A stretch of 44,075 nt of DNA, taken from NCBI GenBank assembly GCA_001825665.1, contig MHXZ01000105.1, forward strand, positions 1 through 44,075, given 5' to 3'. This document shows positions 1,651 to 43,797 of this stretch, piece by piece. The stretch comes from Planctomycetes bacterium GWF2_41_51 (GTDB taxonomy: Bacteria > Planctomycetota > Phycisphaerae > Sedimentisphaerales > UBA12454). The notes beneath the pieces are model-generated. The model made no database searches. It saw only the letters and a program-made list of their open reading frames with translations, and had not been told where the DNA came from. The number at the start of each line of letters is the position of its first letter. The stretch's first letter is position 1. The position numbers and the translations under genes were made by a program.

Positions 1651-1860
1651 AATAGATTTAGACCGCTGATTTCGCCACTAAAATATTCACCACAGAGCCG
1701 CCGAGAGTACAGAGATAAAATGCTTTAAGTCGATGTTCTGCGAATTTAATTAACCGCGAATTAACCCCCTCTGATTTTGTTTTTCAAGGCAACAAAATCC
1801 AAAAGAACCGGGGATCTCCGCTTCGCTCCGACACGAATTTTCACGAATTATTTTTAGCCA

Positions 1861-1900
1861 CCCCGATGAGATAGCTGAAGCAGCATCTCACGGGGCAGGC
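1861..1900. repeat. CCCCG/CGGGG hairpin element
   Basis: Imperfect palindrome CCCCGATGAGAT...ATCTCACGGGG followed by CAGGC. Related arrangements occur at 43798-43840 and, on the opposite strand with the same flanking TTAGCCAC and CAGGC words, at about 43497-43550. The element at 5179-5280 also ends in ACGGGGCAGG. This suggests a small dispersed hairpin family. Confidence 0.5.
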
Positions 1901-2421: not shown

Positions 2422-4719
2422 CTATATGGTGCCATGTTTAACAAAATTCAACACACGCTTGACGAATCCTAAGAGTTCGCTATCACTTATTTGCTCTGTT
2501 TCCCAGGCTGGGTTTGTGTCATGATGAAATTTATTAGCATAATCTGTAATGGCTTTTAATTCCCCCATGCTAACAGCATCCATAATTTCTTTACCCGATT
2601 TAGAAAGATTTTCTGCTTGATTATAGAAGTTTCCAAGAAGAGTTCCAGGTATACAATATTCAGGAAAAGTAATTCGCAAATATTTCTCCATTACCGGTCT
2701 TAATGATTGGGCTACGATTTGTTTCTCTTGAGTATCCGCCACAACATAATCTCTTAAAATCTTATGACGTTTATCATATTCTGTAAATGCATCAGAAGAC
2801 ACATCCCATGTCGCAATATTTGAAGTATTATTGGTATCTCGAAATATTTTAAGCGCAGTTGTGTTGTTTTTGTACGAATGCTCCCAAATATCACACAAAA
2901 ACTTCCTAAAATGGCACAAAATAATTACTTGTTTGGTGGTAGATAATAGATTTCTAATTTTTTGAATTGTTGTAGTCGTACGTCCTTCATCTAGGCTTGA
3001 AATGGGATCATCAAGGACGATAATTGAATTATTTAAATTTGGTTCATTTTCGAGAGAAGAAAAAAAGAAAGCTAGCCCCAAAGTATTTCTATCGCCCGCA
3101 CTAAGTGCATTTTTAAAACATGGAGCAGCTTTATTTTCTAACGATACCTGATGTTGATTGATTTCAATATGATATATTGTACTTGGTCGCCCCGCAGCAT
3201 TGGACGATTCCAAATTCCCAATTCTAAAGCTTGCTCCAAAAGATTCCAAATGATTATTTATAGCAGTATGGTATTTAGAAAATACAGCTTGCCTATGAGC
3301 ATCTAAAGATATTCGAGCAGTATCTTTTTGTGTTTCCAAAGATTTTTTTCTTTCAATTTCTCTTTGATATTGGTCACATAAATCCTTTAATTCATCGGAA
3401 TACCTTGATTGTGTTGCTTTTAGAAGATTTAATTCATTAGCAACATTTTTTAAATTACCGGAATCTGCTTGTTGTTTCAAAATAGTTATTTGTTGATTAA
3501 AGTCCATCAAAGTTTTAATACTTCTTGTGAGATCAACAAGTAGAGTAAGGTATCTTTCAATCTTTGTTTTGATTTCATCTACTAAAGCAACTGGATTGAG
3601 AGGAGATAACCTTTTAGTTTGCAGCAAAGCCAAAACTCCTTCTCTAGCCTCTTGCCAAGCAATTGACAAACTTCCCCAATTTATCTCTATTGCTGGTAGT
3701 TTAATAAAATTTTTCCAAAATTCATAAAGATTTTTTAAATTGTTAATTTCGACTTGTTTAGAAGAAAGAATGTCACCACTAAAATTACTCGAAAAATAAT
3801 TTATTTGCCCAGAAATCTGCCGAATCAATTTATTATATGATTCTCCAAAATAAGCTTTATATTTTGATAGCAAATCAACTCGATTAATATTTTGAGTGCA
3901 GAAAGGACATTTTTCTTCCTGATTATTAGGGTTTTTTATAATTCTTCTCATTCCATCTGATACCCATTTTTCTGCATTCTCGCCAATTAAGGTAAAATGC
4001 TCGTTAATAAATTTTACAGATGAGCTATCTAAATCTGATAATTCCGCCAATAGAATTCCATCAAGAACACTCATGTCTATTGAAGGAAAAGTTATTTGCG
4101 AAAATAAATTTTTTTTGGAAATATCTGCGTTTAACATAGCATCATATAAAACTTGCTTATCCGTTATCAGTTGTTCAATATTATCAATCTCTTTGAGACT
4201 GCAAAAAACATCAAGTTCTATTCCAAATCGTGAATGGACAGGAATTTGATTTGATATTTCCCTTATATTATTGTTACTATCCGCTATCAGTTGAGATAAT
4301 ATTTGGACTTTTCGCGCTAATGAAACTCCTGCACGCCCCAAGATTACTTCATGCAGTTTTTGTCGATGAGAAGCATTTATTTCTAAGCCAGAAAATACGT
4401 TTTGATTTATAAATTCATCATCATATACAAAGATGTGGCTATTATGGATATTCCAGTTGCCGGACTGAAATATTGTATTATCGCTTTCACCGTCAATAGT
4501 AAGAACTATATGGGGATCGTTAGCAGACCCTAATCTTTTTCTGCCATTAATTACGATGGCATCATTATAAGCTAATGACGAAAATATTGAGGAAATGGTT
4601 GTTTTGCCTCGACCATTTTCAGCATAAATAAGAACTAATTGCTTAAATTCATCTAAATGAGAATTGCTATAAGAATCGAAACAACCTATATTTCTAATTA
4701 AATTAATTTTTTTTAACAT
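2422..4719 (-). CDS. RloC/PrrC-like AAA_13 ATPase, candidate tRNA nuclease
   Basis: A 765-residue ABC/SMC-type ATPase. The Walker A is 'AENGRGKTT' (33-41). Long charged coiled-coil stretches flank a zinc-hook motif C271-P-F-C274, as in Rad50 and RloC. The signature-like 'SAGDRNT' is at 540-546 and Walker B 'IIVLDDPISSLD' follows, with D570-D571. The C-terminus has R674-x3-E678 and H732-H733, resembling the R-x3-E...H catalytic set of the PrrC/RloC anticodon nuclease (HEPN-type) domain. RloC proteins cleave tRNA anticodons during DNA stress or phage attack. The ATPase family is clear; nuclease activity is inferred from the triad-like residues only. The gene appears solitary, with no adjacent restriction genes, and sits between repeat elements. 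It could instead be an AAA_13 protein without nuclease activity. Confidence 0.75.
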   Translation of the reverse strand: MLKKINLIRNIGCFDSYSNSHLDEFKQLVLIYAENGRGKTTISSIFSSLAYNDAIVINGRKRLGSANDPHIVLTIDGESDNTIFQSGNWNIHNSHIFVYDDEFINQNVFSGLEINASHRQKLHEVILGRAGVSLARKVQILSQLIADSNNNIREISNQIPVHSRFGIELDVFCSLKEIDNIEQLITDKQVLYDAMLNADISKKNLFSQITFPSIDMSVLDGILLAELSDLDSSSVKFINEHFTLIGENAEKWVSDGMRRIIKNPNNQEEKCPFCTQNINRVDLLSKYKAYFGESYNKLIRQISGQINYFSSNFSGDILSSKQVEINNLKNLYEFWKNFIKLPAIEINWGSLSIAWQEAREGVLALLQTKRLSPLNPVALVDEIKTKIERYLTLLVDLTRSIKTLMDFNQQITILKQQADSGNLKNVANELNLLKATQSRYSDELKDLCDQYQREIERKKSLETQKDTARISLDAHRQAVFSKYHTAINNHLESFGASFRIGNLESSNAAGRPSTIYHIEINQHQVSLENKAAPCFKNALSAGDRNTLGLAFFFSSLENEPNLNNSIIVLDDPISSLDEGRTTTTIQKIRNLLSTTKQVIILCHFRKFLCDIWEHSYKNNTTALKIFRDTNNTSNIATWDVSSDAFTEYDKRHKILRDYVVADTQEKQIVAQSLRPVMEKYLRITFPEYCIPGTLLGNFYNQAENLSKSGKEIMDAVSMGELKAITDYANKFHHDTNPAWETEQISDSELLGFVKRVLNFVKHGTI

Positions 4720-4891: not shown

Positions 4892-4999
4892 ATCGCGGCT
4901 CTGAACCCCCAACCCCCGACTACTCGAGGGCAGGCGCCAGTTGGGGGCTTTCGGATTATTCGGAATTTGTTTCATTCGGCACAAGAAATTTGAAAGGTT

Positions 5000-5044: not shown

Positions 5045-5178
5045 GTTTGGTACGGTTTTGAAAAATCAGTTTTTTCATTGCAACACTCCTTGTTAAAGAA
5101 TTGAATTGGATACATTATACTATGATTTAAGGGAAAAACAAGGGAGAAAATTTGGCCCATTAGGCAAAGCTAAAATGA

Positions 5179-5276
5179 CCCCATAAGATTTCTTCAGGAA
5201 TCACAATCATATATGATGGCAAATTTTACCAAAATCATACTGGTAATCTTCAACCCTTTAAAGAAATCTTACGGGG
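5179..5276. repeat. Long-armed imperfect palindrome
   Basis: Arms at 5179-5194 (CCCCATAAGATTTCTT) and 5261-5276 are complementary at 15 of 16 positions around a 66-base centre. The arm word AAGAAATCTTAC recurs at 40341-40352 beside the other inner repeat, so the two inner-repeat regions share more than the 52-bp element. Confidence 0.6.
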
Positions 5277-5296
5277 CAGGCCACGATATTTGAAAT

Positions 5297-5372
5297 TTTT
5301 TATTAACCCCCAATATAAAATGGGGGTACGACTTTTTTATTAACCCCCAACATGAAGTTGGGGGCTTTCGGA
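5297..5372. repeat. Tandem CCCCCAA hairpin units
   Basis: Two adjacent units each begin TTTTTATTAACCCCCAA and fold on themselves: CCCCCA...TGGGGG around 5308-5325 and CCCCCAAC...GTTGGGGG around 5344-5364. The second is followed by CTTTCGG, a word also seen after GTTGGGGG at 4939-4953. Non-coding; possibly a terminator-like or mobile hairpin element at the edge of the insertion sequence. Confidence 0.5.
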
Positions 5373-5375
5373 GGT

Positions 5376-6724
5376 ACAAACTGATAACATAGGTTACAAA
5401 GTATGCCAGGGACATAGGTGACACTATTCGGATATAATGGTCCTCAAAAAAGGAGGACACAATATGCCTTGGAGTGTAACCTGTGTTATGGAACAAAAAG
5501 TTAAATTTATAATTGATTTACTGGAAAACAATTACAACATGACTGAGTTATGCGATCATTATGGCATCAGCCGCAAAACGGGATATAAATGGCTCGAACG
5601 CTACAACAGCAGCGGCATAGACGCATTGCATGATCTCAGCAGAAGACCTCACAATCATCCCAATGAAATTTCAGATGAAATCAAAGACCTGATTCTTTCA
5701 ATCAAACAGAGATTTCCAAAATGGGGTGCGCCAAAAATCAGAAATAAAATTCAGCGGAAACATCCGAACTGGCCGCATTATCCGGCGATTTCGACGATAG
5801 GATTATTTCTTCACAAGCAAGGTTTAACGATTCATCGCCGCCGAAGGCGCAAAGCAACTCCTACAGAATATCCTTTAACAAATGGCAGTTGCAGCAATCA
5901 GGTATGGTGCGCAGATTTTAAAGGACATTTTTTTACACAAGACCGCAGTCGCTGCAATCCATTGACCATCAGTGATCATGCCAGCCGTTATTTATTATGC
6001 TGCCGTCATCTTGAGCGGATGAGCTATGAGTTGGTTAAAATGCAATTTGAACGTACATTTCGCGAATATGGTCTTCCGAAAGTAATTCGTACAGACAATG
6101 GCTCACCATTTGCGTCACGAGGTCTTGGCGGATTAAGCAGATTAAGTTACTGGTGGATACGTTTAGGAATTCATCCGGAGCGAATACAGCCGGGCCATCC
6201 GGAACAAAACGGCTGTCATGAGAGAATACATAAAACGTTGAAGTCTCACACAGCCAATCCATCTGCCAAGACGATAACATCACAGCAAAAGCGATTTGAT
6301 GAATTTTGCATAGAGTACAATCATCATCGTCCTCATGAAGCATTGGGAATGTGTACGCCGCAGGAATGTTATAGACCCCCATCGATAAGAGAAATTCCGT
6401 CACGCCTGCCGCCGATAAATTATCCGGAACATATTCAGGTTCGTCGGGTTCGGATGCATGGCGACATTTATTATTTGGGCAGACGATTATTTATGACGGA
6501 AAGTTTAAGTGATGAATATGTTGGTATAGAGCGGATTGATGAAGACAAAAGTCTGCTATGGTATTGCGATTATCCGCTTGGTGAAATAGACCATAGAAAT
6601 TGGCAGATAAAGGCGATAAAAAGCCGCCCGTTTATCTCCGCAGCTGCGGAGATAAACGAACATAACTCTATAAAAGTGTTACCTATGTCGTCGGTATAAA
6701 TTGTTACCTATGTTTTAGTTGACA
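5376..6724 (+). mobile_element. IS481-type insertion sequence
   Basis: One transposase gene is bounded by inverted terminal repeats, about 5376-5425 on the left and 6675-6724 on the right. The inner 40 bases match at 32 positions. Each end carries two ACATAGGT-type words 25 bases apart, likely transposase-binding sites. The outermost 10 bases match poorly, so the exact left end is uncertain: the right end starts TGTCAAC when read inward, and the left tip has decayed or differs. No target duplication could be assigned. Confidence 0.75.
5464..6699 (+). CDS. IS481-family transposase
   Basis: A 411-residue DDE transposase. The N-terminal helix-turn-helix region includes 'NMTELCDHYGISRKTGYKWLERY' (about residues 23-45). 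The rve integrase core has the catalytic residues in 'WCADFKGHF', 'IRTDNGSPF' and 'NGCHERIHKTL', and 'EYNHHRPHEALG' follows, as in IS481 members. The start at 5464 is set by a strong AGGAGG ribosome site just upstream; an in-frame ATG at 5437 precedes that site. The frame is intact, so the element may be active. A TATAAT box at 5433-5438 could drive it. Confidence 0.9.
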   Translation: MPWSVTCVMEQKVKFIIDLLENNYNMTELCDHYGISRKTGYKWLERYNSSGIDALHDLSRRPHNHPNEISDEIKDLILSIKQRFPKWGAPKIRNKIQRKHPNWPHYPAISTIGLFLHKQGLTIHRRRRRKATPTEYPLTNGSCSNQVWCADFKGHFFTQDRSRCNPLTISDHASRYLLCCRHLERMSYELVKMQFERTFREYGLPKVIRTDNGSPFASRGLGGLSRLSYWWIRLGIHPERIQPGHPEQNGCHERIHKTLKSHTANPSAKTITSQQKRFDEFCIEYNHHRPHEALGMCTPQECYRPPSIREIPSRLPPINYPEHIQVRRVRMHGDIYYLGRRLFMTESLSDEYVGIERIDEDKSLLWYCDYPLGEIDHRNWQIKAIKSRPFISAAAEINEHNSIKVLPMSSV

Positions 6725-40540: not shown

Positions 40541-42241
40541 TTATTTAACTTTGAATAATTTATCTTTTTCAGATAAAGACAGTATCTCATATTGCTTAAT
40601 ATCAATATCTTTAGGTAATTTGTCTCTTAAAACCGGAACCACATACTGGCAATTGACACCATTTACAATTTCAGTCAAAAGACTAGATATTTGATTGTCA
40701 TGAACATTTTCGATTTGATCGTGTAAAATAAAATGCAAGCATTTAATGCTCAATGAATCTGCAAATTGAATATATGCCAAATCAAAAGCAGCTATTTGTC
40801 CCTTTTTTTTGCCCGTTCCTAAATTTCCGCTTATACTACTTATGTTTAATTCGTAGCCTTTTTCGTTTCTGTCCGCACTTACGACAAACCTTTCTCCATA
40901 TAAACGAAATGATATATCTGAGAAATACTTATTAAACTCGGCAACTCTCTGTTGAATTAAATCATCTTTGGACAAAATACCTTTATTTATCTCTTCAATT
41001 TGATCTCCTATGGCTTTCAGTTTATTTTGAGATTCTTCTATAAGTCTTTTTTGCTCTTCTAATTTACCTTTTTTTTCAAACGCTTCATTTAGTTCCAATA
41101 TTATTTGTTGCATTTCTTCTATTGCGCCAGATTTCTTAAGACTATCAGTTAGATTTTTTTCCTGCAATAAAAGTGCACTCATTTCCCTTTTTACACTAAT
41201 TAATTCGGCTTCAAGTTCTGGCAATTCTCGACTGATATATTTAATTTTTTCAGCGATCATTCGATTATGAAAATTCAATGTATCTTCAAATGTTTTTTGA
41301 ATTTGAGGAATTAAAACTTTAGCCTCTTCATACAGGTTCTTAATTTGTTTTGTATCTATTTGAGACAATTCTTTTTCTAAGTTAATTTTGCTGTCGTTAA
41401 TTAACTCTTTTCTCATTTCTAGTCTGCTGTATTCAGTCGATAGTTTGTTAACTTTCAATTTAATCAGATTCAATTTTGTAAGGTCAACTTCGTATTTTTC
41501 ATTAACATTAAAGCTATTTCGTTTCTTTTCTAATTCTTTTATATTCCTATCGATAATAAGGAGTGATTGGTTTATAAGAGACAGTGAGCTTTCTTCTTTT
41601 AATCTGTTTTCAAATTTTTGTTCTAATGCTTGTTCTTGCAATAACTTTTGCTTTCTAGCATTAGTATCTAATTCAATCCCCAACCAAAACAAATATAAAG
41701 CTTCATATTCATCCTGTCGTGTACACAAATGAAGAACTTTTACAGTATTAACAAGTTTACTTTTTTCGTCCCTTACATTTTTTGCAATAATTTGCCTGAA
41801 CTTTGGTTTTTCTGCATCTGAATTAAATATCAACTTTTTCAATCTCTGCGAAAATGTATCATCATTGTAACTTTCGTTATTAATTTCTTGAATTTTCTTT
41901 GAGTATTGAAGGAAGTTTCTTTTTATTACAATCTCACTCGAATTTGCATCTTCTAAATCTTCCTTTAAGATGAGAGTAATAATTACGTTGTTATTTTTTA
42001 AAAATTGTTCGATCTGAGTATTACTTTTATTTTTGAATTCTGGATCCTGATAAATATTTCTGCCATCGCTTCCAAGACAAAAGTCAATAAGTCTTAATAC
42101 CGTTGTTTTGCCAACATTATTACCTGACTCCTTTTTGTCTTGTGTTATAGATTCGTCAACTATAAGATTTATACCTTTGTGAAAAGGTAAATCTCTTATT
42201 AGTAACCCATTGTTTTCTATTTTAAGTGTTTTTAAAAACAT
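40541..42241 (-). CDS. ABC-3C system ATPase (DUF2326 family)
   Basis: A 566-residue SMC-like ABC ATPase. Walker A 'GNNVGKTT' (40-47) lies in an N-terminal half-domain, followed by about 300 residues of coiled coil (roughly 180-430) and a C-terminal half with DUF2326 character ('ISSISGNLGTGKKKGQIAAFDLAYIQFADSLSIKCLHFILHDQIENVHDNQISSLLTEIVNG'). H507-D508 stands at the Walker B-like position. DUF2326 ATPases form the first component of ABC-three-component conflict systems, thought to sense foreign or damaged DNA and activate an effector. Its start overlaps the small middle-component gene by 10 bases, so the three genes are one operon. Confident family call; defence role inferred from the family. 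Confidence 0.85.
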   Translation of the reverse strand: MFLKTLKIENNGLLIRDLPFHKGINLIVDESITQDKKESGNNVGKTTVLRLIDFCLGSDGRNIYQDPEFKNKSNTQIEQFLKNNNVIITLILKEDLEDANSSEIVIKRNFLQYSKKIQEINNESYNDDTFSQRLKKLIFNSDAEKPKFRQIIAKNVRDEKSKLVNTVKVLHLCTRQDEYEALYLFWLGIELDTNARKQKLLQEQALEQKFENRLKEESSLSLINQSLLIIDRNIKELEKKRNSFNVNEKYEVDLTKLNLIKLKVNKLSTEYSRLEMRKELINDSKINLEKELSQIDTKQIKNLYEEAKVLIPQIQKTFEDTLNFHNRMIAEKIKYISRELPELEAELISVKREMSALLLQEKNLTDSLKKSGAIEEMQQIILELNEAFEKKGKLEEQKRLIEESQNKLKAIGDQIEEINKGILSKDDLIQQRVAEFNKYFSDISFRLYGERFVVSADRNEKGYELNISSISGNLGTGKKKGQIAAFDLAYIQFADSLSIKCLHFILHDQIENVHDNQISSLLTEIVNGVNCQYVVPVLRDKLPKDIDIKQYEILSLSEKDKLFKVK

Positions 42242-42462
42242 TTCTTGATTTGACCATTATTATCGTTTATTGCACCTATTAGAAACAACCAATCCATTGT
42301 CAAAGCAAATAAGTTCATGGATATTTTTTCATAGTTATTTATTTTTTGAAAAATATCAAAAAAATCGAAATCTTTTTTTGGTGAGTTTCTCATTATATCT
42401 ATTGCTAGGCTACCTATATAGTATAATTTTCTTTCTGGTCTTGTATCCCTGCTAACTATCAT
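42232..42462 (-). CDS. ABC-3C middle component, small
   Basis: A 76-residue helical protein ('RKLYYIGSLAIDIMRNSPKKDFDFFDIFQKINNYEKISMNLFALTMDWLFLIGAI'). Its size, position and 'LxxDWLFLIGxI' end fit the middle component that links the ABC ATPase to the effector in ABC-3C systems (MC6/MC7-like); the subfamily is uncertain. Its ATG overlaps the TGA of the HNH gene (ATGA), and its end overlaps the ATPase start, a translationally coupled arrangement. Confidence 0.7.
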   Translation of the reverse strand: MIVSRDTRPERKLYYIGSLAIDIMRNSPKKDFDFFDIFQKINNYEKISMNLFALTMDWLFLIGAINDNNGQIKKCF

Positions 42463-43277
42463 TGCTTTTTAGGCTCCTCTAATATTTTGCATCGCATGAA
42501 AGCATCAACCATAATAACTGAAATACCAAAAGTAATATCTTCATAATATCTGCCGCCGTTATTATTGACCAATTTCAAAAGCGTGTTTTCAATGTCTTCA
42601 ATGATATTGTCTGCATTTTCGCGAATTATTTCAATTGGCTTTGATGAATCACCAACATAATTGCCTTTTATTTTCAAATATATTTTTTTAATGTTTCTTA
42701 AAAGTTTTTCTTTTTTAAATGAACCTTGCTTTTCCATTTCATCATATAAAGAATTCACTTTGTCATAAAAAACCATATATTCGTCAATTAAGGCTTTATT
42801 CCTTTTAATTGAATTGTAAGTTATTTTTTGTTCTATGCCAAACACTTTTATATTTTCTACATCTTTATCGCTGACCTCTTCAAAATCAATATTGGCTATT
42901 GCATTAATTGCAATGTTTAAAAGAGATGGATTCGAGTTAAATTTAGAATACAAGCTGCTTTCATGATTTCGTTTCCATTCTTTTAATAATTCAACCGGGT
43001 ATTGTGCCTCATTGGTCTTATTATCTATGATGCAATGGCATTCATCACAAAATAAAATTAGATTGTTAAAATGCCTTCTTTCGTTATCTGTCATATTAGG
43101 ATTATATCTTGCCCCATTTTTGTTTGCTGCTTCAATGTGGCAGATTTTACTGATAATAGTTTCTCCATCCCTTGCTATTAATTTTTTTTCGCAACCCGGG
43201 AATGCACATGTATTTCCTGAAAGGCCATATAACTTTTTGAGAGTAGTATCAGTGTAATCTCTTGCATTAGGTGACAT
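42459..43277 (-). CDS. HNH nuclease effector of ABC-3C system
   Basis: A 272-residue protein. The N-terminal HNH endonuclease domain (about 15-105) has the metal-binding pairs C24-x4-C29 and C77-x2-C80, with H47 in 'KICHIEAAN', the Asn of 'HFNNLILFCDECH' and H81. A helical C-terminal part (about 110-272) corresponds to the ABC-3C effector's C-terminal domain. The nuclease would cut DNA when released or activated by the ABC ATPase. The start at ATG 43277 is preferred over an in-frame TTG at 43280, with AGGGA upstream. First gene of the operon; the two downstream genes overlap end to end. Confidence 0.85.
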   Translation of the reverse strand: MSPNARDYTDTTLKKLYGLSGNTCAFPGCEKKLIARDGETIISKICHIEAANKNGARYNPNMTDNERRHFNNLILFCDECHCIIDNKTNEAQYPVELLKEWKRNHESSLYSKFNSNPSLLNIAINAIANIDFEEVSDKDVENIKVFGIEQKITYNSIKRNKALIDEYMVFYDKVNSLYDEMEKQGSFKKEKLLRNIKKIYLKIKGNYVGDSSKPIEIIRENADNIIEDIENTLLKLVNNNGGRYYEDITFGISVIMVDAFMRCKILEEPKKQ

Positions 43278-43797
43278 CAAAATATCCCTACAACGGTTTC
43301 AAGCTTATGAGCAACCACAATCATCCATAAAATCAAAATGCCAAAAATTATTTCTGTTCCATCTCCTATGTTGTCTTCAGCGGTGATTCTTTTTTTACTT
43401 TCTCCATTCTACCTCCTAAATCAGATTATTCAACCCAAAATAACATTTTTTTGTCCGCTTCTCCATTTTTCAATTAAATATATTTTAGTGTCTTTGTGCC
43501 GACGCCTGCCCTGTAGAATTGACTCGTCAATCGTATCGGTGTGGCTAAGTTTCCTTTTTTCCTGTAGCAAAGCGAAAATCTCGCCGCCGTTTTCCTTACT
43601 TCCTGATATTTATCCGCCATCCGGCGGCAATTTCGTTACCTAAAAACCTAACCCAAACGAGCTGCCTTTTAATCCCCGTACGGGGACACCGCAACCGTAT
43701 TACGTCTGTTTATATTATCACCAAACTTCATTTTTACAAACTTTAATTAACCGTCATTTTACATCTTCTAATCCTTTAAACCAGCGAAAGAAGTTTA

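Follow-up and report, generated by a model that had tools for sequence, protein, structure and literature searches.

The window, by which we mean the whole 44,075 nt stretch of DNA analysed, contains on its minus strand an ORF of 765 aa with an ATG start codon (2422–4719), located between the greA gene (697–1275) and an IS481-type insertion sequence 0.7 kb upstream, with long gene-free stretches on either side. The gene and its flanking elements are as follows:

2422–4719, minus strand: gene for the predicted RloC-like ABC-ATPase/HEPN protein (AAA_13 and PDC-S06 matches, model pLDDT 90.5)
5386–6714, plus strand: IS481-type insertion sequence with transposase gene (5437–6699) and 43 nt inverted ends (Pfam rve, rve_3 and LZ_Tnp_IS481; inverted repeats)
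1860–1900, plus strand: hairpin element with the left 16 nt repeat (1885–1900; DNA fold −13.6 kcal/mol, z −5.5)
5176–5281, plus strand: inverted-repeat element with the right 16 nt repeat (5266–5281; 16 nt arms at 5179–5194 and 5261–5276, fold z −2.5)

The 765 aa protein matched the Pfam family AAA_13 (E 5.1e-35, 121.8 bits with a cut-off of 36) and, over nearly its full length (residues 1–760), the PADLOC model PDC-S06 (E 5e-74), a single-gene candidate defence system of PADLOC, the term being used in PMC11514479. Further sequence matches were to RecF, Rad50 and SMC_N, and the PADLOC PrrC model aligned mostly with the ATPase region (E 6.7e-8, strongest over residues 560–619), while a sequence search of solved structures with the whole protein returned weak ABC matches and none better. 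On these profile matches, the protein belongs to the AAA_13/PDC-S06 candidate defence ATPases.

An earlier reading of the sequence alone (hereafter the sequence-only reading) had placed the gene in a repeat-bounded slot, and a pair of 16 nt direct repeats (15/16 identical, 1885–1900 and 5266–5281) indeed flanks it, the 14 nt core of which is expected by chance 0.16 times per window at up to 2 mismatches. The 16-mer has three copies genome-wide, with the third on G000:C44. The inverted-repeat elements on both sides of the gene end in ATCTYACGGGGCAGGC and may represent a small intergenic repeat family, and an exact 17 nt repeat, AGTTGGGGGCTTTCGGA, is present at 4939–4955 and 5356–5372, these being two of its three copies in the genome. 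A search for an empty site did not detect one, as the neighbourhoods of greA, fetched from 4/8 relatives in which greA was matched, have nothing but this gene in common with the window.

The GC content of the gene (0.322, GC3 0.226) is low when compared to the nearest other genes (0.42–0.47 and 0.39–0.43, respectively), which suggests that it was gained horizontally. The same compositional signature was seen for an ABC-3C pair at 40541–43280 (GC 0.29–0.30, well below its surroundings), and both therefore look acquired. This pair, consisting of a DUF2326 ATPase (40541–42241) and a CTD10 ABC-three-component partner (42459–43280), had been described as lying opposite to our gene; it does exist, but about 36 kb away and on the same strand. 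Between 12087 and 38491 the window contains a cluster with several uroporphyrinogen-decarboxylase-like, laminin-G-like, sulfatase, BNR-repeat and sialate-esterase-like genes, which may serve in the use of glycans. PSD1, PSCyt2 and DUF1501 genes were also recognised in the window using Pfam and, together with the nearest named relative of the protein (see below), make a planctomycete host probable.

Conserved residues and predicted fold

Conservation was assessed in an alignment of 84 rows, consisting of the 765 aa protein and the 83 homologues that passed full-length filters out of 141 fetched loci (the best 80 of 371 genome relatives, and 61 loci on viral contigs). The motifs, all encoded on the minus strand, and the number of rows in which their residues are identical are as follows:

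4597–4620, minus strand: Walker A/P-loop, residues 34–41 (ENGRGKTT); K39 in 84/84
3898–3909, minus strand: CPFC motif of the putative zinc hook, residues 271–274; C271 in 83/84, C274 in 84/84
3091–3102, minus strand: ABC signature, residues 540–543 (SAGD); S540 and D543 in 84/84, G542 in 83/84
2989–3024, minus strand: Walker B and D-loop region, residues 566–577; D570, D571 and D577 in 84/84
2911–2913, minus strand: switch histidine H603; 84/84
2425–2802, minus strand: predicted C-terminal HEPN-like domain, residues 640–765 (separate model pLDDT 92.3, pTM 0.86)
2686–2700, minus strand: R674-x3-E678, predicted catalytic, in helix 666–684; both in 84/84
2521–2526, minus strand: H732-H733, predicted catalytic, directly after helix 715–731; H733 in 84/84, H732 in 81/84

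The combination of an ABC ATPase, a CPFC motif and a C-terminal R-x3-E...HH set, which had been noticed in the sequence-only reading, was thus found at the residues named there and is conserved among the 84 rows. In the alignment of the C-terminal domain alone the mean column identity is 31%, and the only invariant columns are those of the R, E and H residues, which suggests a role in catalysis. Since H733 is invariant and H732 is not, H733 is the likelier catalytic histidine. The Rx4-6H motif of classical HEPN RNases was not detected, as positions 5 to 7 ahead of either histidine, H732 or H733, contain no arginine (TDYANKFHH); an arginine is supplied by the R-x3-E motif, as is the case in RloC. 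The glutamate is separated from the histidines by X53 (H732) and X54 (H733), and in 22/84 rows the spacing to the H733 column is 49–52.

The full-length AlphaFold2 model, based on the 84-row alignment, had a mean pLDDT of 90.5. Its first ~645 residues matched Rad50, SMC and RecF heads (Rad50 5da9_B with a VIA Z of 22.5, rmsd 4.0, 323 residues aligned), and the putative CPFC hook is located between the ATPase halves, with the lowest confidence at the apex (block-mean pLDDT about 55–72, residues 231–290). R674 and E678 share one helix of the model, and H732/H733 are found immediately behind another (666–684 and 715–731). When folded on their own, residues 640–765 (126 residues) gave five helices with a pLDDT of 92.3 and a pTM of 0.86. 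In a Foldseek search of the PDB with this C-terminal model, the top two of 222 matches were HEPN proteins, 2hsb (TM 0.60, E 0.069, probability 1.00) and 8xdj (E 0.44), with no HEPN match at E ≤ 0.001, and VIA ranked Csm6′, the 2hsb HEPN protein, sacsin HEPN and MntA-HpeT at positions 1–4 (Z 8.8–8.0, rmsd 3.1–3.9, 107–113 aligned residues), although Z values under 13 may arise by chance for helical bundles. Csm6 is a HEPN RNase, and 9/17 titles in the top 17 VIA rows name HEPN or MntA-HpeT. The HEPN assignment follows mostly from the way in which HEPN entries crowd the top ranks, as the Z values by themselves are no proof for a helical bundle. No match at E ≤ 0.001 was obtained in a viral fold library, and sequence searches of solved structures with the C-terminal profile, or with a profile of PrrC C-termini, gave nothing meaningful. 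The sequence-only reading would have been contradicted by a C-terminus lacking a HEPN fold; the prediction is instead a confident helical bundle with HEPN proteins as its best structural matches. With a predicted HEPN fold following the ABC ATPase, the protein is, on the model, of the ABC-HEPN class.

Distribution and neighbourhood of the homologues

Homologues of the protein are sporadically distributed. Within the phylum sample, 24/392 genomes gave a match at E ≤ 1e-3 and 8/392 at E ≤ 1e-40, own genome included, and the single positive genome of the 13 in the family sample is that of the window itself. With a 20-sequence profile as the query, 371 relatives were confirmed in species genomes and the top 80 retained; the same contigs gave no match when scanned with the single sequence. 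Among these best 80 of 371, the nearest named relative is a Planctomycetia MAG (39%), and relatives of the HH type are found in planctomycetes, proteobacteria, bacilli and one archaeal bin. Using tblastn, homologues were detected on 41 of 72,556 plasmid records, with 33/41 covering at least 80% of the query, and IMG/VR viral contigs contained 61 loci at E ≤ 1e-3, while no match was found in the INPHARED phages (50,697 records).

No R-M Pfam family was detected in the 26 window ORFs scanned, with small ORFs and two ORFs near 38.5–40.3 kb falling outside the scan. The gene had been thought to stand without type I restriction genes, which holds locally for these 26 ORFs but not for the genome, where two type I R-M operons are present on other contigs, one encoding HsdR, HsdS and HsdM (C59) and one an EcoEI-R-type helicase, HsdS and HsdM (C31). 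Silencing or partnership in trans with R-M systems is discussed for RloC in PMC2610378 and PMC3874168, and with two such operons in the genome a similar relationship is possible for the protein described here. R-M or DNA methylase genes were present within 5 kb of the plasmid homologues in 5/12 annotated loci, the thirteenth locus having no annotation.

The nearest neighbours were collected from 54 genome loci with a length of ≥12 kb, giving 107 proteins, with 1/108 omitted (L100, a 1,916-codon ORF). PADLOC models for type I methylase, specificity subunit and DUF3223 matched 3–4 of these proteins each, and the Pfam Resolvase family was found in 6. The number of PADLOC models with any match was 302 for the 107 nearest neighbours versus 89 for 93 genes located >5 kb away, where the models are redundant and the numbers do not count systems. 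No Pfam family was present in more than 6/107 nearest neighbours, a recurrence too low for an obligatory partner and in favour of a system made up of one protein. In three loci (L031 4421–5026, L103 6915–7514 and L104 7263–7862) a serine-resolvase gene (about 200 aa) and the beginning of the ATPase gene have some 23–26 nt in common, as if translationally coupled, and a resolvase gene is also close to the homologue in L032 and L034.

Proposed mode of action and alternatives

The sequence and the model present an intact Rad50/SMC-type ATPase head, interrupted by a helical stalk with a CPxC motif as its putative hook; behind it comes a HEPN-like domain in which R674, E678 and H733 are invariant. 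We propose that this is a stand-alone ABC-ATPase/HEPN defence protein working like RloC, with a probability of about two in three. By analogy with RloC, a dimer would sense abnormal DNA, either broken or from a phage, through its ATPase and hook, which would restrain the HEPN domains until such DNA is encountered. The freed HEPN domains would then cut RNA independently of metal, using the R, E and H residues, and the RNA cut would most likely be the anticodon loop of tRNA, thus halting translation and with it phage growth. The trigger would most likely be infection or DNA damage, and the outcome disabled translation. We consider some RNase activity to be quite probable, while cleavage of the anticodon itself, again argued from known relatives, falls slightly short of an even chance; the identity of the RNA is the weakest step of the proposed mechanism.

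The same ATPase switch may control an ABC-HEPN RNase that cuts mRNA, rRNA or tRNA elsewhere than in the anticodon loop, a possibility that we rate as the less likely one. HEPN RNases have many targets, with RNase LS and LsoA cleaving mRNA (PMC3710099), the HH-type clade is unlike RloC in its spacing and in the residue before the histidine, and the C-terminal match to PrrC C-termini fails (see below). Against this, the R, E and H residues, the putative hook and the ABC motifs are arranged as in RloC, and both characterised ABC-HEPN enzymes named in PMC3710099 cleave anticodon loops.

It is improbable that the HEPN domain lacks nuclease activity and binds RNA or protein instead, leaving a DNA-sensing ATPase that works with another effector such as a type I R-M system in trans. 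Some HEPN domains without the catalytic motif are thought to be non-catalytic (PMC3710099), the Rx4-6H arginine is absent here, and the genome does have its two type I R-M operons, but R, E and H are retained in 84/84 rows against an average domain identity of 31%, and the activity of RloC requires the R-x3-E...H set (PMC2610378). A role in DNA repair or maintenance, as an island-acquired ATPase of the RecF/RecN/Rad50 kind with no part in defence, would account for the RecF, Rad50 and SMC_N matches and the Rad50-like head, yet is very improbable given the sporadic presence (1/13 family genomes; 8/392 genomes of the phylum sample with E ≤ 1e-40), and since carriage on plasmids, R-M neighbours and fusion to a HEPN domain do not fit a housekeeping repair protein. 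Equally improbable is a decaying cargo gene that has lost its function, as might be suspected from the adjacent IS481-type element and the long gene-free flanks, because all 765 codons are open and every family-invariant residue is retained.

Comparison with known ABC-HEPN nucleases

A defence protein working like RloC remains our preferred reading, and for the candidate family PDC-S06 it offers an assignment to HEPN, a hypothesis down to single residues and an 84-member alignment. It also raises the question of whether the stand-alone AAA_13 proteins that are still uncharacterised act in abortive infection by cutting tRNA.

PrrC likewise has an ABC ATPase fused to a C-terminal R-x3-E domain, in its case R-x3-E...SH, but is half the size (about 341–416 aa, PMC2610378), has no hook and is located beside type I R-M genes, whereas our protein is 765 aa, has a putative hook and lacks R-M genes among the window ORFs scanned. 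PrrC proteins were fetched with the PADLOC PrrC model and tblastn, one of them being annotated as anticodon nuclease and located between hsdS and hsdM, and all 7/7 contain R-x3-E-K...SH. An alignment of the C-terminus with PrrC nuclease domains had been suggested as a check on the sequence-only reading, but the profiles do not align (probability 0.7, motifs out of register), and homology to PrrC in this domain was rejected as a candidate on that comparison. As the same comparison also fails for a clear SH-type AAA_13 group (5.9), it does not discriminate. One PrrC-model match (L188, G052:C35) has a single in-frame TGA in the matched stretch, while the PrrC-like ORF itself is open.

The fetched loci included two more AAA_13 groups with R-x3-E...SH (A4 and A5), from viral and genome contigs. 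Their architecture is the same as that of our protein, from which they differ by SH in place of HH, a shorter E-to-H spacing and only about 20–25% identity in partial alignments. In hhalign, the C-terminal profile of our family matched that of A5 (probability 89.6, E 1.9e-6, 106 columns) with R-x3-E and H in register, and the match to the other SH group was weak (probability 20.1), yet with R-x3-E in register; the A4 and A5 C-terminal profiles match each other at 92.4.

RloC is described in PMC2610378 as a protein of 658–897 aa with a CX2C hook and an Arg-X3-Glu-X36-52-His motif, often with a Ser before the His, that is rarely linked to R-M genes; its activity was lost when R692, E696 or H737 was mutated and increased with the hook mutation C291G. 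DNA breaks activate RloC (PMC3874168). Compared with these published descriptions of RloC from G. kaustophilus and A. baylyi, our protein has in common the Rad50-like ABC ATPase with Walker A and B, signature and switch histidine, and a predicted C-terminal HEPN domain with R-x3-E followed by a conserved histidine; a conserved CX2C motif is present where the model places a putative hook. Its 765 aa are within the RloC size range, and like most rloC genes it is not linked to type I R-M genes, as judged from the window ORFs scanned. It differs in the E-to-H spacing, which at X53/X54 is 1–2 residues beyond the published X36-52, and in having HH where SH is frequent in RloC (PMC2610378). The likeness to RloC anticodon nucleases pointed out in the sequence-only reading is partly supported, by the HEPN-like model, the R, E and H residues in 84/84 rows and the profile match to an AAA_13 R-x3-E...SH group, but not by the spacing. 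As the likeness is to a published description, which the protein fits save for that spacing, we refer to it as RloC-like, or as an AAA_13/PDC-S06 ABC-HEPN protein, rather than as RloC. The HH-type proteins may form a distinct, widespread and partner-free ABC-HEPN branch with an RNA target or trigger shifted from that of RloC, although we regard this as rather doubtful; no paper on the biochemistry of this clade was found in the literature searched. The fusion of a Rad50-like ATPase and a HEPN domain is an already known bacterial design, which probably halts viruses through damage to the RNA of the host cell itself, and the product of the 2422–4719 gene is a further member of it and not a new type of system.
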